The notes under the pieces are model-generated. The model searched no databases. It was not told the DNA's origin and was given only the letters and a program-made list of their open reading frames with translations. The translations under genes and the position numbers were made by a program. Of a DNA stretch of 36,313 nucleotides, positions 2,497-27,847 are shown piece by piece; position 1 is the first letter of the stretch, and each line of letters opens with the position of its first letter. This stretch comes from Sphingobacteriaceae bacterium. Its GTDB lineage: Bacteria; Bacteroidota; Bacteroidia; B-17B0; Aurantibacillaceae. The DNA lies in contig JAHEYG010000027.1 of assembly GCA_023251725.1 (NCBI GenBank), positions 1-36,313 of the forward strand, in the 5' to 3' direction.

Positions 2497-4656
2497 CTAC
2501 TTCAAAATCTTCATCTCATTTAAAAGATAACCTGCTCCGGCAAATTTATCGATGATAAAAAGTGTGTAGCGAACATCCAAAACAATATTGCGGCACTGAT
2601 TAGGATTATACATTACATCGCTCATCGTTCCTTCCCAATTACGATCAAAATTAGTACCAATGAGTTCGCCCTTGCCATTTAAAACCGGCGAACCGCTGTT
2701 TCCTCCAGTTGTATGATTGCTTCCCGTAAAAGCAATATGCAATTTTCCGTTCTTATCAGCGTAAGCGCCGTAATCTTTTTTAGCATACAATTCTTTTAGT
2801 TTAGGAAACACAACAAACTCATCGCTTTTAACATTTTCTTTTTCCATTAAACCATCAATCGTTGTAAAATAATCGTAATGAACTCCATCGCGCGGCTCGT
2901 AATCATTTACTTTACCATAAGCCACACGCAAGGTTGAATTAGCATCTGGATAGAATTTTTTATCTTTAATTAATTCGCGCATGGCTTTTACATATTCTTT
3001 TTGCAAATCATTAATTTGTAATTCATCATAATTGGCTTGCGGAGAAACAGAAGTTTGATAATATTTTGAAACCGAATACGTCATTTGATAATACGCGTCC
3101 GACTCATAGGTTTTATAATTTTTTTCAAAGTCATCGAACATTACCTTCGCTTTGTCGTTATCAATAAAGCTTGAAGAAGAATATAAATATTTCGCCACTT
3201 GCTCTCCATTATTATTATTAGCAGTAAGTAGCGAATCTAAATAACGCGGGCGCGCCAATTTATCCACACCCTCCACATAAGCATTGAGCATAGCGATGCA
3301 AAGTTTATAATCGGTTTCCTTATTCATATTTTTAAACGGAATGGATTTTCTAAGATCCGCCAGCATTTTATCGAATTTATTTTCTTTACCGGCTTCTTTC
3401 TTTTTTACTTCGGCAAACAATCCAATAAAATTTTGAGTAAAGCGCACGCCGTCAATTCCCAATAAACACTCGTTGTAATAATCCATTTGCTTACTTAATA
3501 CCGAATACTCGCTATATAATTTCTTAAACTGATTAAACATATCCCTGTATTTTTCTTTCTTACCAGGAAAAGCAGAAGCCAATTCTAAAAACTTTTGTTC
3601 AAATACTTGTTTCTTTTCAACCGCATTGTATTTTTTTAATCCAATCATTTCTCCACTCCACTTCTTATAGTAATTTGCCACTCCCGCGTAAGCGTTGGCA
3701 TAAGCTAAACGCAAGGCTGTACTTTTTTTCATGTCTTCTTCCAATATAGATAATCTTTTTGCACGCAACGCTACTCTTCGCGGATTGGTTTCGTTTATCA
3801 ACATTTCTACAGCGTAAGAAGTTAAATATTCTTGTGTCCTTCCCGGGAAACCGTAAACCATTGTAAAATCACCTTTCTCATACCCTTTTAATGAAATAGG
3901 AATAGAATGTTTTGGTTTGTACGGAACATTATCCACCGAATAATCGGCCGGCTTATTATCTTTACCGGCATAAATCCGAAACAAAGAAAAATCGGCATTG
4001 TGTCGCGGCCACACCCAATTATCAGTCTCGCCCCCAAATTTACCTATGGAAGAAGGCGGTGCACCAACTAATCTTATATCGCGAAAAGTTTCGGTAACAA
4101 ATAAATAATATTCGTTGCCATAAAAAAACGGACGGATAAACGCACCATAATTCGTTCCCAGCATCGCTTCAGCTTCGAGCATTTTTATATTTCCTTTTAT
4201 AGCAGAGTCGCGCTGCACTTCCGAATAAGTTGCTTTTAAATTACCAAGAACTTTGGTTGTAACTTCGTCGATTCGATTGATAAAAGTAACCGTTAAACTT
4301 GGTGTATAAATTTCTTCGTTAGGTGCCATCGCCCAGAAACCGTTAGTTAAATAATCGTGTTCAACGGTACTGTGCATGGTGATAGAAGAATACCCACAAT
4401 GGTGATTGGTAAGAATTAATCCTTTTTCAGAAATTATTTCGGCAGTACATCCTCCGCCAAATTGTACAATGGCATCTTTTAAACTGGATTTATTTACACT
4501 ATAAATTTGTTCGGCCGTTAATTTGCATCCGTTTTTTTGCATGTCTTTAATATTTAAAGCCTGAAGCATTTGCGGAAGCCACATACCTTCATCGGCGATA
4601 CAAAAAATAGTTAGTACGGAAAAGTGAATAGTTAAGAGTATTTTTTTGATTAACAT
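2497..4656 (-). CDS. S46 family dipeptidyl peptidase, DPP11-like (acidic P1)
   Basis: 719 residues with an N-terminal signal peptide. S46 peptidases remove dipeptides from peptide N-termini in the periplasm of Bacteroidota that feed on protein. The catalytic triad is visible: His85 in TNHHCGY, Asp222 in WPRHNADFSLF and Ser654 in GGNSGSPV. Length and residue numbers closely follow Porphyromonas DPP7/DPP11 (His85, Asp227, Ser655). The S1 pocket residue lies 18 after the catalytic Ser; in the family Gly there marks DPP7 (hydrophobic P1) and Arg marks DPP11 (Asp/Glu P1). Here it is Arg672 (in FDRNWEGT), so cleavage after Asp/Glu is predicted. The gene stands alone, transcribed leftward, preceded by a repeat array; I see no clear promoter. 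Confidence 0.9.
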   Translation of the reverse strand: MLIKKILLTIHFSVLTIFCIADEGMWLPQMLQALNIKDMQKNGCKLTAEQIYSVNKSSLKDAIVQFGGGCTAEIISEKGLILTNHHCGYSSITMHSTVEHDYLTNGFWAMAPNEEIYTPSLTVTFINRIDEVTTKVLGNLKATYSEVQRDSAIKGNIKMLEAEAMLGTNYGAFIRPFFYGNEYYLFVTETFRDIRLVGAPPSSIGKFGGETDNWVWPRHNADFSLFRIYAGKDNKPADYSVDNVPYKPKHSIPISLKGYEKGDFTMVYGFPGRTQEYLTSYAVEMLINETNPRRVALRAKRLSILEEDMKKSTALRLAYANAYAGVANYYKKWSGEMIGLKKYNAVEKKQVFEQKFLELASAFPGKKEKYRDMFNQFKKLYSEYSVLSKQMDYYNECLLGIDGVRFTQNFIGLFAEVKKKEAGKENKFDKMLADLRKSIPFKNMNKETDYKLCIAMLNAYVEGVDKLARPRYLDSLLTANNNNGEQVAKYLYSSSSFIDNDKAKVMFDDFEKNYKTYESDAYYQMTYSVSKYYQTSVSPQANYDELQINDLQKEYVKAMRELIKDKKFYPDANSTLRVAYGKVNDYEPRDGVHYDYFTTIDGLMEKENVKSDEFVVFPKLKELYAKKDYGAYADKNGKLHIAFTGSNHTTGGNSGSPVLNGKGELIGTNFDRNWEGTMSDVMYNPNQCRNIVLDVRYTLFIIDKFAGAGYLLNEMKILK

Positions 4657-4672
4657 GTTATGGATTGTTTAT

Positions 4673-4833
4673 TTCTGGTTACTTATTACTGGTTACTGCC
4701 TACTGCCTACTGAATACTGAATACTGAATACTGAATACTGAATACTGATTACTGCCTACTGAATACTGATTACTGCCTACTGTTTACTGCCTACTGTTTG
4801 CTGCCTACTGTTTACTGCCTACTGTTTACCGGT
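4673..4833. repeat. Degenerate heptamer array, 23 units, core TACTG + NN
   Basis: From 4687 to 4833 there are 21 successive 7-base units in unbroken phase, almost all TACTG followed by a variable pair (GT, CC, AA, AT or TT). Variants are TGCTGCC at 4799-4805 and TACCGGT at 4827-4833. Two more weakly matching units (TTCTGGT, TACTTAT) extend it to 4673. Five adjacent TACTGAA copies lie at 4708-4742. The array fills most of the 219-base gap between the end of the MFS gene and the start of the peptidase gene. No spacer-repeat alternation exists, so it is not CRISPR. Whether it acts in transcription ending, recombination or DNA binding is unknown. Confidence 0.95.
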
Positions 4834-4875
4834 TTCTTGTTTCTTGTTCTGTATTTATTATTTTTTGATTGCGCT

Positions 4876-10382: not shown

Positions 10383-13300
10383 ATGACGCTAAAAAAATAT
10401 AGTGCTATAATTTTATTTGCAAGTGTTGCATTTGTAATGAAAGCGCAAAAAACGATAGCTTATCTTGATAAGGATGCCTTTTACAAACAGGGGCTCGATA
10501 TGTTTGATAAAAAACAATTTGTTACCGCGCAAAAAAGTTTTTCAGATTTTCTTACTTTAAATTCCAGTCCTACAATTTTAAAAACCGATGCCGAATATTA
10601 TGCGGCGGCTTGTGCCATTGAATTATTTCATAAAGATGGTGAATACCGTATGAGGGAGTTCATTACAAATCATGGTGAGAGTCAGAAATTAAACAGTGCT
10701 AATTTTTATTTAGGGAAATCGAGTTTCCGTAAAAAGAAATACGATGAAGTGATAAAAAATTTAGAGAAGGTGGATATTTATTTGCTTTCGAAGGAAGATT
10801 TGGCAGAGTTGTATTTTAAGAGAGGATATAGTTATTTAGAAAATAAAAATCAGGAAAAAGCCCGCCCGGATGAAGATCCGTTCGGACGGGCAAAAGCCGA
10901 TTTTTATGAAATTAAAGATGTAGATAATAAATATGCGCACCCGGCCAATTATTATTATTCGCACATAGCGTACATCGAAAAAAATTACGAAACCGCTTTG
11001 CAGGGATTTACACGTTTAATAAATAACGAAACTTTTGGAACCGTAGTGCCCTATTACATCACACAAATTTATTTCGTGCAAGGCAAATTTGCTCAAGTAG
11101 TGAAGGACGCTCCTGCTTTACTTAACGATACTTCTCATATACAGAAAGCCGGAGAAATTAATCGCATGATAGGCGAATCGTATTACAATTTAAAAGATTA
11201 TAAAAATGCTTTAGATTATTTAAAGAAAACCGAATTGGCCTCGGGGTTAAATACAGAAGGAAATTATGCCATTGCTTATTGCTATTACAAATTAAACGAT
11301 TACATAAATGCGATAATTAATTTTGAAAAAACAGTTGAAGGTCGCGATTCAATGGCACAAAACAGCTGGTACCACTTAGCCGATTGTTATGTTAAAACTA
11401 ACGCTAAACCACGGGCACGTACCGCCTATTATAATTCTTACAAATATAATTTCGATAAAAAAATTGCAGAAGATGCTTTGTACAGTTTTGCTAAACTCGC
11501 TTACGAATTGGATTTTAGTCCGTACAACGAAGCGGTAAAGGCATTTTCGAAATATCTGAAAGAATATCCCGATTCTCCCCGTAAGGATGAAGCATATCAG
11601 TTTTTAATTAACGTTTATTCCACCACAAAAAATTATGAGAAAGCAATTGTGAGCATTGAAAGTTTGGAGAGTCAGGATCCGGCCATAAAAGCCACTTACC
11701 AACGGTTAATTTATTTTAAGGGGGTCGAATGTTTTAATAATAACGATTACGATAACGCCGAAAAACAATTTAAGAAAGCAATTACTGTTAATGCCGATAA
11801 AAATTATAATGCCATTGCCACTTATTGGCTGGGAGAAATTTCTTATCAGCGTAAAGATTATTCAACGGCTATCGAAATTTGGAAAGGATTTCAGTTGATG
11901 CCAAGCACCATTCATCTGCCCGAATACGATTTGGTGAATTACAATATGGGATATGCTTATTTTCAGAGAAAAGAAAAAGAAGATTACTCCAATTCTAATA
12001 TTGCTTTCAGAAAATATTTACTTACAAAAGAAAATACCGATATTTTAAAAACAGCCGATGCCAACGTGCGTGCCGCCGATTGTTATTTTATGACGGCGAA
12101 TATGAAAAATGGTTTTTACTCGCAAGCCGCCGACCTATACGAAACCGCTATTGCTATTAATAAAGTGGATGTAGATTATTCTTACTATCAAAAAGCGTTG
12201 TGTAACGGTTTATTAAAAAATAATAATGAAAAAATAAATGATTTAAAATTTATTGAAACTAATTTTCCACGCTCTAATTATTTAAGCGCTGCCATTTACG
12301 AAATGGCCGAAACTTACAGTAAAGATTTGAACGATGGTGATAATGCGATTACGTATTACGAAAAATTATTAAAAAATTACCCGAACTCTTCTTTTGCTAA
12401 TCAGGCCCTGGCGGGAATGGGATTGGTGTTTTACAATCGTAAACAAGACGATAAAGCTTTCGAGTATTTTAATCAGATTGTGCAAAAAGACACCAAAAGC
12501 GATGATGCGCGTGAAGTGCTGCCGATGATTAAAAAAATATTTGAAGCTAAAGGAAACATTGATGCCATGGAAAAATATTTCGCCTCCGTAGGAAATCCGT
12601 TATCGGTAAATCAAATTGAAAATTCGTTATACGAATCGGCTAAAGATGCTTACTACAATAAAAAAGATTGCGAAAACGCCCTCCCAAAATTAGAAAGTTA
12701 CATTACTAAACTTCCCGATGGAAAATACATTACCGAAGTACAGTTTTGTTATGGGGAGTGTAATTACAGTAAAAATAATTTTGAGAAAGCGCTGCCTGCT
12801 TATTTATTTGTGATTAGCAAAGCCCGCGGCATTTACAGCGAAGTATCTTATTCAAAAGCATCGTATTTATTATTTAAGGATAAAAAATATACAGAAGCGC
12901 TTCCTGTTTATTTACAAATGCAGGAAATTTCTGAAACTCCCGCCAATAAATTAAATTCTAAAATTGGAGCCATGCGCTGCGCTTTTTATTTAAATCAGTT
13001 CGAAACCGCGTTAACCGAGTGTAAAAAAGTTTTAGAAAATGATAAATTAAGTCCGCAGCAAAACAGCGAGGCAAAATACATGAAAGCCCGAAGTTTATTT
13101 GAAACTCAACGCTACGATGATGCCATGACCGAATTTAAATCGATAGCCAAAACCGCCAAAAATAATACCGGCGCCGAAGCATTTTATTACGAGGCCAAAA
13201 TACATTTCATTAAACAAGAATATAAAGAAGTGGAGAAAACAATAAATGCTCTTATCAGTTACGAATATACCAACGACGATTGGAACACACAGGGCATGCT

Positions 13301-13592
13301 GCTCATTGCCGATAGTTATCTTAAGAAAGGCGGGGATAAAGATGCTGAAGTGATTTTACAAAGCATTATCGAAGGAAAACCAAAACAACAATTTATTGAT
13401 GAGGCGAATAAACGTTTGGATGAAATTAAACAAAAACAAAACGGACGATTAAATGAAGTGCAAAGCAGTTCGCCCGAATTAAAAGTTGAATTTAAAACAA
13501 ACAACAACGAAACTAAACTGTTTCAACAAAAAACCGATAGTTTAAATACAAGTGTTCCAATTAATAATGTTCAACCCCTAAAACCCCAATAA
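10383..13592 (+). CDS. Large periplasmic TPR-repeat protein
   Basis: 1069 residues from ATG 10383 (a TTG six bases upstream is less likely). A signal peptide ending in MKAQ precedes about 20-25 tetratricopeptide units, recognisable by repeated motifs such as YYLGK..F..K.YDEVI and AIYEMAETY. The C-terminus is a Gln/Asn-rich tail. TPR proteins of this size followed by a small membrane protein and an outer-membrane barrel recur in Bacteroidota and probably act as a periplasmic scaffold for envelope assembly; the exact task is unknown. Residues 161-170 (RPDEDPFGRA) interrupt a repeat and come from a GC-rich palindrome, described separately. Its stop is one base before the next ATG. Divergent from ftsE with 148 bases between; no convincing promoter seen. 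Confidence 0.85.
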   Translation: MTLKKYSAIILFASVAFVMKAQKTIAYLDKDAFYKQGLDMFDKKQFVTAQKSFSDFLTLNSSPTILKTDAEYYAAACAIELFHKDGEYRMREFITNHGESQKLNSANFYLGKSSFRKKKYDEVIKNLEKVDIYLLSKEDLAELYFKRGYSYLENKNQEKARPDEDPFGRAKADFYEIKDVDNKYAHPANYYYSHIAYIEKNYETALQGFTRLINNETFGTVVPYYITQIYFVQGKFAQVVKDAPALLNDTSHIQKAGEINRMIGESYYNLKDYKNALDYLKKTELASGLNTEGNYAIAYCYYKLNDYINAIINFEKTVEGRDSMAQNSWYHLADCYVKTNAKPRARTAYYNSYKYNFDKKIAEDALYSFAKLAYELDFSPYNEAVKAFSKYLKEYPDSPRKDEAYQFLINVYSTTKNYEKAIVSIESLESQDPAIKATYQRLIYFKGVECFNNNDYDNAEKQFKKAITVNADKNYNAIATYWLGEISYQRKDYSTAIEIWKGFQLMPSTIHLPEYDLVNYNMGYAYFQRKEKEDYSNSNIAFRKYLLTKENTDILKTADANVRAADCYFMTANMKNGFYSQAADLYETAIAINKVDVDYSYYQKALCNGLLKNNNEKINDLKFIETNFPRSNYLSAAIYEMAETYSKDLNDGDNAITYYEKLLKNYPNSSFANQALAGMGLVFYNRKQDDKAFEYFNQIVQKDTKSDDAREVLPMIKKIFEAKGNIDAMEKYFASVGNPLSVNQIENSLYESAKDAYYNKKDCENALPKLESYITKLPDGKYITEVQFCYGECNYSKNNFEKALPAYLFVISKARGIYSEVSYSKASYLLFKDKKYTEALPVYLQMQEISETPANKLNSKIGAMRCAFYLNQFETALTECKKVLENDKLSPQQNSEAKYMKARSLFETQRYDDAMTEFKSIAKTAKNNTGAEAFYYEAKIHFIKQEYKEVEKTINALISYEYTNDDWNTQGMLLIADSYLKKGGDKDAEVILQSIIEGKPKQQFIDEANKRLDEIKQKQNGRLNEVQSSSPELKVEFKTNNNETKLFQQKTDSLNTSVPINNVQPLKPQ
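10860..10891. repeat. In-frame GC-rich palindromic insertion inside the TPR gene
   Basis: A 32-base element folds as a double hairpin. The outer stem is GCCCG (10860-10864) with CGGGC (10887-10891). The inner stem is CGGAT (10867-10871) with ATCCG (10876-10880), closing a GAAG loop. About 70% of its bases are G or C in a gene that is near one third. The 7-mer AAAAGCC occurs at both edges (10856-10862 and 10892-10898), 36 bases apart, like a target duplication. The reading frame is kept, adding about 10-12 residues. This resembles the palindromic elements found inside Rickettsia genes. It could also be a chance GC-rich segment. Confidence 0.7.
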
Positions 13593-21654: not shown

Positions 21655-23223
21655 ATGGACCAAGATAATCAAAATAAAACCCGAAAACGCGTATTCACCA
21701 ATACAGGCACACCGGTAAACGAAATTGGAAAATTGCCGCCACAGGCAGTTGAATTAGAAGAAGCTGTATTGGGCGCTATGCTTTTAGAAAAAGAAGCCCT
21801 AAGTACAGTCATAGATATTTTATCGCCCGAAAGTTTTTACAAAGAACAAAACGGAAAAGTGTTTGCTGCTATAATTTCATTATTCAATCGTTCTGAACCC
21901 GTAGATATTTTAACCGTAACACAAGAATTAAAACGCAGTGGCGAATTAGAATTTGTGGGAGGTTCGTATTATGTTTCTGCTTTAACAAACCGCATAGCTT
22001 CTTCTGCCAACATCGAATTTCATGCTCGCATTGTGGCACAAAAATATTTACAGCGCGAATTAATTCGCATTGGTACCGAAACCATTAAAACCGCTTACGA
22101 AGACGGTACTGATGTGTTTGAATTATTAGACCTCACCACAAAAAATATTTTTGAAATTTTAGATTCGAACGTCCGCAAACAGCACGATAAAATGAGTACG
22201 CTCATTGCCCGCGCCATTGAAGAAATTGAAGTGGCTGCAAATACCGCCGATGGATTACTGGGCGTACCATCCGGATTTACGGCATTAGATCGTATTACAG
22301 GCGGCTGGCAAAAATCAGATTTAATGGTTTTAGCATCGCGCCCGGGTATGGGAAAAACTGCTTTTGTAATTACCATGGCTAAAAATGCTGCCGTTGATTT
22401 TAATAAACCGGTTGCTATTTTTTCGTTAGAGATGTCTTCTATTCAATTGGTAAAACGTTTAATATCGAGTGAAACAGAAATTGCGCAGGATAAAATTTTA
22501 AAAGGAAATTTAGACAATCACGAATTTGTTCAACTGAACGAACGTATTAAAAAATTATCTACAGCACCTTTATTCATCGACGATACACCTGCTCTATCTA
22601 TTTTTGAATTGCGCGCCAAAGCCCGCCGTTTAAAAGAAAATCAAAAAGTTGAATTAATAATTATTGATTATTTACAGTTAATGAGCGGTGGCCCGGATGG
22701 AAAAGGAAACCGTGAACAGGAAATTTCTACTATTTCGCGCGGATTAAAAAGTTTAGCGAAAGAATTAGAAATTCCAATTATTGCATTATCACAATTATCC
22801 CGTCAGGTAGAAAATCGTCCGGGCGGAAGTAAACGTCCGCAACTAAGCGATCTTCGTGAGTCGGGCGCCATTGAGCAGGATGCTGATATGGTAATGTTTA
22901 TTTACCGGCCCGAATATTATGGTTTGGAAGTTGACGAAAACAACGAACCCACTCGCGGAAAAGCCGAAATTATTATTGCAAAAAACCGTCACGGCGCATT
23001 AGAAACTGTTAAACTGCGGTTTATTGGTCATTATGCAAAATTTGCAGATTTAGATTATGGTGATGGAAACGACATCGCTCACACTTCAAAATCATTAGAA
23101 CAAAACGATAACTTTTTAGCCGGTACCAAAACCGTTCAATCTAAAAACTGGGATAATGTAGAGGAGAATAATACTGATATTGTTAAGCGAAACGATATTG
23201 AGGATATTAATGATGAATTTTAG
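21655..23223 (+). CDS. dnaB: Replicative DNA helicase DnaB
   Basis: 522 residues. The N-terminal domain (about residues 20-125) binds primase; the C-terminal RecA-like motor has Walker A ASRPGMGKTAF with Lys234, Walker B LIIIDYLQLM, and the DnaB signature QLSDLRESGAIEQDADMV. The hexamer unwinds DNA at the replication fork in the cytoplasm. The ATPase domain is uninterrupted, so there is no intein, a frequent insertion site in DnaB. The acidic C-terminal tail (EENNTDIVKRNDIEDINDEF) is lineage-specific. A tandem repeat begins eight bases after the stop. Confidence 0.96.
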   Translation: MDQDNQNKTRKRVFTNTGTPVNEIGKLPPQAVELEEAVLGAMLLEKEALSTVIDILSPESFYKEQNGKVFAAIISLFNRSEPVDILTVTQELKRSGELEFVGGSYYVSALTNRIASSANIEFHARIVAQKYLQRELIRIGTETIKTAYEDGTDVFELLDLTTKNIFEILDSNVRKQHDKMSTLIARAIEEIEVAANTADGLLGVPSGFTALDRITGGWQKSDLMVLASRPGMGKTAFVITMAKNAAVDFNKPVAIFSLEMSSIQLVKRLISSETEIAQDKILKGNLDNHEFVQLNERIKKLSTAPLFIDDTPALSIFELRAKARRLKENQKVELIIIDYLQLMSGGPDGKGNREQEISTISRGLKSLAKELEIPIIALSQLSRQVENRPGGSKRPQLSDLRESGAIEQDADMVMFIYRPEYYGLEVDENNEPTRGKAEIIIAKNRHGALETVKLRFIGHYAKFADLDYGDGNDIAHTSKSLEQNDNFLAGTKTVQSKNWDNVEENNTDIVKRNDIEDINDEF

Positions 23224-23230
23224 GAAAAAA

Positions 23231-23397
23231 GGTTAATCGTTATAAGGTTATAAGGTTATAAGGTTATAAGGTTATAAGGTTATAAGGTTATAAGGTTATA
23301 AGGTTATAAAGTATAATTTAAATTTAAAAATATTGCGTAAAAAAAAATAACCAATAACAGATAACGATTAACCTTATAACAAATAACGGATAACCCC
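23231..23397. repeat. Large imperfect inverted repeat of GTTAT words between dnaB and rocD
   Basis: The left arm carries GGTTAATCGTTAT (23231-23243) and the right arm its exact reverse complement, ATAACGATTAACC (23361-23373). Beyond that, the left arm repeats GTTATAAG while the right arm, read on the bottom strand, repeats GTTAT with changing pairs (CC, TT, TC, CT, TG). The arms are separated by about 50 AT-rich bases. The whole could form a long imperfect hairpin in RNA after dnaB. It is not followed by a clean T run, so a standard terminator is doubtful. Confidence 0.75.
23239..23310 (+). repeat. Tandem array, nine copies of GTTATAAG
   Basis: Eight perfect 8-base units, GTTATAAG, run head to tail from 23239 to 23302, with a ninth (GTTATAAA) to 23310. 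It starts 15 bases after the dnaB stop. Unlike the 4673 array the units here are almost identical, which suggests recent slippage; copy number may vary between strains. Confidence 0.95.
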
Positions 23398-25264: not shown

Positions 25265-27847
25265 ATGAAAACAGAAACATCAGTTTCATCTAAAAACGAA
25301 ATTCTTCACGAGATGAAAGATCCCACATCTTCTTTCAACGAACATGATGTTATTCATAATTTAAAACATTACTTGCCTACACAAGCAGCTCTGCGAGATT
25401 TTATTCATCACAATTCGTTACACGCATTTCAAAACTTAAAATTTTACGATGCTATATTTAAGGCATCTAAAATGTTCGGGTATCAGGTAACTTTGCAATT
25501 AAACGAATTCAGAACCCTTTATAAAAACGGAAGAATTAGAAAAGATGTTTTAGAAAAAGTAATTTGTGATAAAAAAGGTCTGGAGCAAGTTGAAAAATGG
25601 AAAGTGAATTTAATTTCAAAGGACTACGACTGCACTAATGCTCCACGCGTAGGTGTTTTGCGTTCGAATTGGAAAACTCAATGTAAATTAGATTTAGATT
25701 CATTAGTACAGCCTTTATTATTCAGAATTCTTAGCAATTATTTAGATCAGGGCATTTCACTTTGGAAATTTCCGGTGGGAAATAAAAGTTTCCTTGATTC
25801 TATAAAAGAATTAGAAAAAAATAGTTACATAAGTTTTTTCAAAACAAAACGGGCCAAACAACTTTTGTTAAGCGGTGATTGCCAAATTAAATCGCTTCTT
25901 AAAATTGTTGTAGGAGATGAAAAATATTTCGAACAATATTTATTTGATCAGCAATTTGCCCATCAGGGCTGGTCGGGCATTACCTCCGCTATTGAAGATA
26001 TGCCCCAAACTTTGATGGATACAAAAAATATTACGCTTCGCGATTTAATTATTTTTGAACTTATTTTGGAAATTGACGCTCTTGATTTTAATCTCCCAAA
26101 AAACTGGCAGCCTCTCAGTAATTTTGTAAGTACAGAACCTATTGATTTATTTGATAAAGTCCCCACCAATGAAATTAACGAAGTGTTTACCCTATGGCAA
26201 AATGCTTTTGAGTGGAGTTATTACGATGGTGTAATTACCGGAATTGCACTTGGAAAAAAGCAGCCTCAAAAAAATATTCCCAAAAAAAGTTTTCAAGCTT
26301 TGTTTTGCATCGATGAACGCGAATGTTCTATCCGCCGCCATACTGAAACCAGCGATGCCAATTGCGAAACTTTTGGAACGCCAGGATTTTTTACCGTTGA
26401 ATTTTATTTTATGCCCGATGGAGGAAAGTTTTATGATAAACTTTGTCCGGCCCCCGTTACTCCAAAATATTTGATAAAAGAATTTAACGCAAAAGAAAAA
26501 CGCGGACATGAAACCCTCTATTCGCATTTATCTCATACTTTTTTTATTGGTTACTTCGTTACATTAACTCTGGGCTTTTGGGCAGCCGTAAGATTATTTC
26601 TGAATTTATTTAAACCGGCTATGAGTCCCGCCATTTCTAATGCGTTTACGCATATGGATAATGATTCGCAGCTGCTCATCGAAAATAAAAATCTCAAAGA
26701 TCGCGAAAATGGTTTGCAAATTGGATTTACCATTGAGGAAATGGCGGCCCGAGTAGAAAGTCTTTTAAGAAGTATTGGATTGCTTAAAGATTTTGCTCCT
26801 ATTGTATATGTTATTGGTCACGGATCGAGCAGTGCTAACAATCCGCATCACGGTGCACACGATTGCGGAGCCTGCAGCGGCCGGCCGGGTTCTGTAAATG
26901 CAAAAGTGTTTGCATTTATGGCCAATCATAATAAGGTACGCCAAGTATTAAGCGCAAAAGGAATTGTTATTCCAAATGAAACACAGTTTATAGGCGGATT
27001 ACACGATACGGCCGCTGACCAAATAAAATTTTATGATACAAAAATACTTTCCGAAAAAAATAAAGAACAACACACTAAAAATGCTGTTGCTTTTGAAAAC
27101 GCCTTAGATCTTAATGCAAAAGAACGCTCGCGAAGATTTGCATCCATTAACACAAAATTAAGTTTGAAAAAAGTACGCGAAGAAATTCGTAAAAGATCGG
27201 TTTCATTATTTGAACCTCGACCTGAACTGGGGCACGGCACTAACAGTTTATGCATTATTGCCGGCAGAAATTTAACCAAAGGTTTATTTTTAGACCGACG
27301 CGCCTTTCTTAATTCTTACAATTATGAAACCGATCCTGATGGAAAAATATTAACAGGAATAATGAAACCTGTTGGTCCGGTTTGCGGTGGTATTAATTTA
27401 GAATACTATTTTTCGAGAGTTGATAATCACAAATTCGGTGCGGGAACAAAACTACCACATAATGTTGTTGGATTATTTGGTGTGGCTAATAGTAGCGACG
27501 GTGATTTACGACCCGGCTTACCTGTGCAGATGATTGAACCGCACGACCCGGTTCGCTTGCTTGTAGTGATTGAACATTTTCCGGAAATAGTTTTAAAAGT
27601 TATTCAGTTTATGCCCGAAATGTACGAGTGGTATATTAACGAGTGGATTCATTTGATGGTAGTGAATCCTGAAACCAATAAATTTTATTATTTTAAAGAA
27701 GGACAATTTGCAGAATACGCTCCGCTTCCGGTTCAAATTGATTCCTTAATTGACTTTAATGTTTTGATGGATTCGGCTTTGGAAATGGAAACCAATCATA
27801 TTGAAGATGCCACTCACGAAAATTTACCTGTTTTTATTTTGAAATAA
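25265..27847 (+). CDS. dabA: DabA: DUF2309 carbonic-anhydrase-like subunit of the DAB carbon pump
   Basis: 860 residues. DabA is a zinc protein with a beta-carbonic-anhydrase-like site that, with the membrane subunit DabB, is thought to hydrate CO2 to bicarbonate in one direction, powered by the cation gradient. All four key positions known from Halothiobacillus DabA2 (Cys351, Asp353, His524, Cys539) are matched here: Cys348 and Asp350 in LFCIDERE, His519 in VIGHGSSS and Cys534 in HDCGACSG, with the same 2- and 15-residue spacings. The second half keeps the DUF2309 hallmarks FEPRPELGHGTNS, PVGPVCGGINLEYY and GLPVQMIEPHDP. It is cytoplasmic and membrane-bound through DabB. dabA precedes dabB here; in several known operons dabB comes first. 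The gap to dabB is three bases. Confidence 0.94.
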   Translation: MKTETSVSSKNEILHEMKDPTSSFNEHDVIHNLKHYLPTQAALRDFIHHNSLHAFQNLKFYDAIFKASKMFGYQVTLQLNEFRTLYKNGRIRKDVLEKVICDKKGLEQVEKWKVNLISKDYDCTNAPRVGVLRSNWKTQCKLDLDSLVQPLLFRILSNYLDQGISLWKFPVGNKSFLDSIKELEKNSYISFFKTKRAKQLLLSGDCQIKSLLKIVVGDEKYFEQYLFDQQFAHQGWSGITSAIEDMPQTLMDTKNITLRDLIIFELILEIDALDFNLPKNWQPLSNFVSTEPIDLFDKVPTNEINEVFTLWQNAFEWSYYDGVITGIALGKKQPQKNIPKKSFQALFCIDERECSIRRHTETSDANCETFGTPGFFTVEFYFMPDGGKFYDKLCPAPVTPKYLIKEFNAKEKRGHETLYSHLSHTFFIGYFVTLTLGFWAAVRLFLNLFKPAMSPAISNAFTHMDNDSQLLIENKNLKDRENGLQIGFTIEEMAARVESLLRSIGLLKDFAPIVYVIGHGSSSANNPHHGAHDCGACSGRPGSVNAKVFAFMANHNKVRQVLSAKGIVIPNETQFIGGLHDTAADQIKFYDTKILSEKNKEQHTKNAVAFENALDLNAKERSRRFASINTKLSLKKVREEIRKRSVSLFEPRPELGHGTNSLCIIAGRNLTKGLFLDRRAFLNSYNYETDPDGKILTGIMKPVGPVCGGINLEYYFSRVDNHKFGAGTKLPHNVVGLFGVANSSDGDLRPGLPVQMIEPHDPVRLLVVIEHFPEIVLKVIQFMPEMYEWYINEWIHLMVVNPETNKFYYFKEGQFAEYAPLPVQIDSLIDFNVLMDSALEMETNHIEDATHENLPVFILK

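Follow-up and report, generated by a model that had tools for sequence, protein, structure and literature searches.

In-frame insertions of a short, dispersed palindromic element in protein genes of a Sphingobacteriaceae bacterium and related genomes

Palindromic DNA that lodges in frame in unrelated genes and adds a peptide to their products is known from Rickettsia and Wolbachia, and the portions available of the two sources describe the Rickettsia palindromic elements (RPEs) as about 150 bp long and falling into ten families (PMC10969869, PMC4224334). A second group of relevance is formed by the REP sequences, of which both the GTAG- and the CGTC-tagged kinds have some copies inside ORFs; the CGTC-tagged superfamily is defined by a tag that reads CGTC, TGTC or CCTC, includes RPE-4 and RPE-6 of R. 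conorii and counts Bacteroidetes among its five phyla (PMC3733652, in the text available). REPs are otherwise treated as seldom overlapping coding regions (PMC12306157, available in part). The excerpted text of PMC6006769 credits subclass 2.6 of the Bacteroidetes Y1 transposases with 'atypical secondary structures' and mentions REPs of subclass 2.4 that lie, as in-frame inserts, within the genes of their own transposases. Protein-coding palindromes are usually told as a peculiarity of the intracellular Rickettsiales, and here we describe a compact family of them in a different group.

The starting point is a gene for a TPR-repeat protein of 1069 aa (10383..13592, plus strand; TPR families in Pfam and NCBIfam) in the window, by which we mean the whole stretch of 36,313 nucleotides that was analysed. 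It hosts a hairpin element which, like the RPEs, has been inserted in frame in several genes, namely those for the TPR protein, superoxide dismutase, isoaspartyl peptidase, kynurenine monooxygenase and a phosphatase, and which unlike the RPEs (about 150 bp in the text available) measures mostly 27–36 bp and resides in a host taken to belong to another phylum. The analogy to RPEs drawn by a previous sequence-only reading of this DNA was right, but membership of that family is unsupported, given a unit of about 30 bp against about 150 bp and an NCBIfam search of seven proteins with inserts in which no RPE family appeared among the matches listed (the best 25 families for two of the proteins).

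The closest described size class is that of the REPs, some of which lie inside ORFs (PMC3733652, in part). As set out in the textual description of the CGTC-tagged REPs in that source, rather than in its consensus figure, the likenesses are a size of 20–40 bp, a four-base hairpin loop (in the 30-bp form of the element) and the lack of a dedicated transposase linked to the element. Next to the core hairpin, at 10885-10888, the minus strand carries a CG(T/C)C tag, and across the family this tag is CGTC in the main form and CGCC in a variant form, the latter not being among the variants named in the available text (PMC3733652). The same description gives the CGTC-tagged REPs a stem of 8–9 bp starting with A-T pairs and a CCA tail, whereas the nine-pair stem of the element begins with C-G (or T-A) and then G-C, has two mismatches inside, and is followed on the minus strand by a GG tail; moreover, in several genomes the element is a separate unit inserted into an apparent CGTC-type repeat. 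With the GTAG REPs and their RAYT (TnpA-REP) transposases it shares the scattering of short hairpins in genomes (PMC6006769, excerpted text), and it differs from them in that none of 18 element copies listed has a GT[AG]G foot and in that the sampled RAYT-like genes are flanked by other hairpins or by none, never by the element. The element does not appear to belong to the RPE family, nor to the GTAG and CGTC REPs as defined. MITEs are usually longer than the element unit; the element resembles them in being small, non-autonomous and palindromic, and departs from them in that comparison of the empty sites, in isoaspartyl peptidase and superoxide dismutase, shows no target-site duplication. Among the matches listed by searches of openly accessible main texts, for the sequence itself and for in-gene palindromes in these bacteria, none described the family.

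A precise insertion in the TPR-repeat gene

The palindrome of 32 nt, GCCCGCCCGGATGAAGATCCGTTCGGACGGGC (GCCCG...CGGGC; 10860..10891, plus strand), has a GC fraction of 0.72 against 0.34 in the remaining gene, in agreement with the GC-rich palindrome in an AT-rich gene that had been reported from the sequence. Its outermost G and C probably belong to the host sequence, and the element as inserted comprises the 30 bp CCCGCCCGGATGAAGATCCGTTCGGACGGG (10861..10890, plus strand), which encode ARPDEDPFGR (residues 160-169); these boundaries were set by analogy with the precise empty sites in two other genes. The codon use of the element is not uniformly odd, with GAT and GAA being common choices and CGC, CGG, CCG and TTC minority codons. 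When folded as RNA, a 51-nt stretch around the palindrome reaches -22.3 kcal/mol (z -3.98), and as DNA a 41-nt stretch reaches -10.8 kcal/mol (z -3.25), with 0 of 200 shuffles as good in either case.

The core hairpin (10863..10884, minus strand) is drawn from co-varying pairs in 17 rows of the family, and consists of the pairs 10863:10884 (C-G or T-A across the family) and 10864:10883 together with 10867-10871 paired with 10876-10880 around a four-base loop. An initial structure did not exceed its shuffle control, as 58 of 500 shuffles reached its covariation score. Within the stem, pair 4:25 is split between C-G (11 of the 17 rows) and T-A (6), and pair 10:19 is G-C in 10, A-T in 5 and unpaired in 2; these two pairs were noticed after the control and may reflect a single subfamily split, so that the covariation is suggestive only.

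Orthologues of the TPR gene were found in all 60 genomes searched, and among the 30 loci returned, 29 (our own included) cover the site. ARPDEDPFGR is present in the window genome only and is missing from all 28 other aligned orthologues, six of them from the same genus, most of which read an uninterrupted ...EKAKADxYEIKD... or a near variant. The predicted in-frame gain of some 10–12 residues thus proves to be exactly ten, and deletion of the 30 bases does give back EKAKADFYEI. The AAAAGCC direct repeat flanking the palindrome exists as reported (left copy 10856..10862, right copy 10892..10898, both plus strand), but it is not an insertion footprint. Insert-free relatives already read ...GAAAAAGC(C/A)AAAGC... 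(Lys-Ala-Lys-Ala), so the left copy is mostly ancestral sequence, the right copy is ancestral, and there is no target-site duplication; a duplication of AAAAGCC, or of GC, was dropped as an explanation after the empty sites had been read. Positions 10861-10890 are a precise 30-bp insertion. The peptide would extend a loop near the turn between two TPR helices, a placement that relies on TPR spacing since an AlphaFold2 prediction of the first 340 residues alone was uninformative (mean pLDDT 33).

A dispersed family and its host proteins

Among 87 genomes of the taxonomic family, five contain places within three mismatches of the 32-nt palindrome, seven in all, and a looser pattern finds 19 places in 10 of the 87 where the reversed control pattern finds none. 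Of 395 genomes sampled from the class, 36 have a match to a covariance model at E<=1e-3; in a phylum-wide sample the model matches, at E<=1e-6, 1 of 395, namely the window genome itself. The family extends over several taxonomic families of what we take to be the Bacteroidia. The element is rare, and most carrier genomes have few copies. By covariance model the window genome (75% complete, 132 contigs) has three copies, each within an open reading frame, in the genes for the TPR protein, an Fe/Mn superoxide dismutase (L106) and SecDF (L107), the last in a variable region of the protein; exact and near-exact searches of this genome (<=3 mismatches) return a single copy. The idea that the palindrome might belong to a dispersed family is accordingly upheld by these three copies and by others in related genomes, and neither of the findings named beforehand as speaking against it, a lone copy in the genome or orthologues with the same residues, was made.

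We read 84 distinct copies, a set that takes in part of the covariance-model places in the class, with weaker matches and opposite-strand duplicates left out; L058 (G082), one of the 19 looser-pattern places, whose centre is unlike the others and which adjoins an apparent tRNA gene, was left out of both the model and the 84. Copies are mostly 27, 28, 29, 30 or 36 bp long, with ends CC(C/T)G...CGGG and a variable centre, and 83 of the 84 fall within 27–37 bp, the remaining one measuring 48. This longer form (L118, from G084, 1612-1661) has its central part expanded, to 48 bp in all. Further afield, an exact 21-mer match in Paludisphaera among the named genomes and a single 88% match to Verrucosispora in the plasmid search were both taken as chance; viral contigs (searched with the exact pattern) and phages gave no element match, and Rfam gave two matches only, both far below gathering scores.

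In the superoxide dismutase of the window genome the 27-bp form adds nine residues, ARPDEPFGR, which face a gap of precisely that length in the solved homologue 3kky. Among 30 aligned dismutase loci the peptide occurs in the window genome only (0 of the 29 others), one of the others (L177) having four extra residues beside the insert site. At this same site the dismutase of a genome of the same genus (L160, G001) carries a different insert of similar length, SSAPGDQSGIP, which may be a decayed copy, a second element or a coincidence. The isoaspartyl peptidase insert is found in 2 of 30 loci (G078 and G086) in the 30-bp form, as ARPDENPFGR or ARPDENPFGQ, just before the start of the beta chains in solved homologues, and is missing from the 28 other loci of the same genus, some of which have a few unrelated residues there. 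SiaA-like phosphatases of two species (G068, G076) contain ARLNGFSFGQ, the element being read from the opposite strand, so that GGEK-ARLNGFSFGQ-GKKFKYK stands against the uninterrupted GGEK-GKKFKYK of the homologue L144. Further hosts are a kynurenine 3-monooxygenase, a leucyl-tRNA synthetase, a pseudouridine synthase, a family 9 glycosyltransferase and two proteins with secretion-system C-terminal sorting domains, and in genome G449 what we take, by our own reading of the sequences, to be alanyl- and valyl-tRNA synthetases, NuoL and a DUF255 protein. The sorting domains, together with the previous sequence-only reading, are the grounds on which the genomes are taken to be Bacteroidota. A common peptide, Ala-Arg-Pro-Asp-Glu-x-Pro-Phe-Gly-Arg in the main frame, recurs in the unrelated TPR protein, dismutase (there one residue shorter) and isoaspartyl peptidase. 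For annotation this is a warning that about ten foreign residues can sit within conserved enzymes.

The mode of insertion is clearest at isoaspartyl peptidase, where L233 has the empty site GATAAGG^AAAAAAAATTC as against GATAAGG[30 bp]AAAAAAAATTC when filled; the sites in the dismutase and TPR genes are consistent with this pattern. Insertion is blunt, of 27 or 30 bp with ends CCCG...CGGG, and leaves no target duplication. Of the 84 copies, 59 have a G as their left-hand neighbour and 71 have a G or a C on the right. Such clean empty sites make the movement of a 30-bp hairpin without target duplication testable, as they do the rate at which frame-keeping insertions survive in housekeeping genes and the possible conversion of inserts into new protein segments.

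Copies counted as genic were those inside an ORF of 200 codons or more, with no fewer than 30 codons to either side of the copy. By this definition 24 of the 84 copies are genic (one of the ORFs, L128 with 211 codons, is probably spurious), with lengths of 30 (15 copies), 27 (7) and 36 bp (2), so that all 24 are multiples of three; outside long ORFs this holds for 36 of 60 copies and fails for 24. Fisher's test of the difference gives p 5.6e-5, an optimistic value because the copies are not all independent, with orthologous pairs among them and several that share one host repeat in G449. Since a gene disrupted by an insert might escape such a count, the ORFs were called again with the element removed: 24 sites again lay in a long ORF, and in 0 of 84 was a long ORF broken by the element. 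All five stop-free frames of the element are used in proteins, and the sixth is used once (L113), with its usual TGA changed.

Mobility and competing explanations

Of 18 genomes tested, 16 have Y1 transposase genes, and none of 36 Y1 loci is flanked by the element, one stretch having a copy at a distance of about 2.7 kb; two genomes with element copies, G069 and G448, gave no PF01797 match. The RAYT-like Y1 genes L189, L194, L196 and L199 are flanked by other hairpin families, that at L199 being a GTAG...CTAC double-foot hairpin.

Some copies are nested in other repeats. Outside genes, a single position within a second repeat, GAGATTGC^TTCG or nearly so and then CGCAATGACG, is occupied by copies in G069, G130 and G259. 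This repeat looks like one of the CGTC type, and the copies in it (L047, L125, L126, L128, L108 and L133, from three genomes) represent either a composite element or a preferred target. In G449, five of the seven copies are at the apex of a CTCTCC...GGAGAG hairpin repeat. Overall 6 of 83 copies have such an apex location at a stem score of at least 8, against a permuted mean of 0.86, an excess due mainly to the one host repeat of G449. This host repeat is itself in frame (L099-L104), with peptides like LTPALSP...GEGEG, and the valyl-tRNA synthetase-like protein seems to have more repeat-like segments, e.g. SNSPEGGGQAPSDSPEGGE.

We consider it probable that the element is a selfish, non-autonomous, REP-like hairpin family of what we take to be the Bacteroidia, tolerated in proteins if the frame is kept. 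A GC-rich hairpin of the 30-bp class would spread as REP-like DNA, copied or moved in trans as single-stranded DNA, with an HUH/Y1 nuclease as the first candidate enzyme; this trans-acting single-strand handling is suggested by its size, its hairpin, its dispersal and the absence of a target duplication, which together suit an element of the REP kind. Selection would then remove frame-breaking insertions, and the translated peptide would be tolerated as a loop extension. A further-reaching version, which we put forward tentatively, is that of a distinct and recently active family of protein-seeding palindromes in Bacteroidia, about 30 bp long with five of six frames open, which an unlinked single-strand nuclease inserts bluntly and by which the loops of housekeeping proteins, aminoacyl-tRNA synthetases included, have been extended again and again outside the Rickettsiales.

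The main competitor dispenses with a transposase altogether and has replication errors, by template switching or hairpin fill-in, copy a distant palindrome into a new site. It would account for the lack of a linked transposase, for centre lengths that vary over 27–36 bp as slippage would give, and for the copies at the apex of another hairpin; we nevertheless judge it unlikely, given the constant ends and the blunt insertion at unrelated sites in conserved genes, where template switching is expected to leave ragged or duplicated edges, and given that the nested cases mostly involve one host repeat. Domestication, in which inserts are kept because the peptide or an mRNA hairpin is useful to the host gene, draws on the inserts common to two species at one site in isoaspartyl peptidase and to G068 and G076 in the phosphatase. 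The host proteins, however, are unrelated, five element reading frames are in use, the shared copy in G086 has lost palindrome letters, and the TPR and dismutase inserts occur in no other aligned locus, all of which makes it improbable.

Less credible still is the proposal that intergenic copies serve for the most part as transcription terminators or as hairpins at mRNA ends, the genic ones being rare accidents of that signal: the T run that follows the window copy on the minus strand, and the 60 of 84 copies outside long ORFs, count in its favour, but terminators are not expected in frame at precise insertion sites in conserved genes, nor at a single position within a second repeat in each of three genomes. 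An assembly or binning artefact, a natural worry with a draft of 132 contigs and 75% completeness, is very hard to reconcile with one insertion at one site in two separate species, a reading frame kept every time and a family present in many genomes, and we give it hardly any weight. Ordinary divergence of a TPR loop, palindromic by chance, might be entertained in that loops between TPR helices do vary; it is refuted by the recurrence of the same 32 letters with 1–3 mismatches in other genomes (and the empty reversed control of the looser pattern) and by the absence of the residues in all 28 orthologues, and its probability is negligible. The REP-like selfish hairpin is thus the reading that we prefer.

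Elsewhere in the window, a GC-rich stretch at 26858 was set aside, as it folds no better than shuffles and is ordinary coding sequence. The window also contains tandem repeats with 7-base TACTGAA-like and 8-base GTTATAAG units, at 4643-4852 and 23223-23320.
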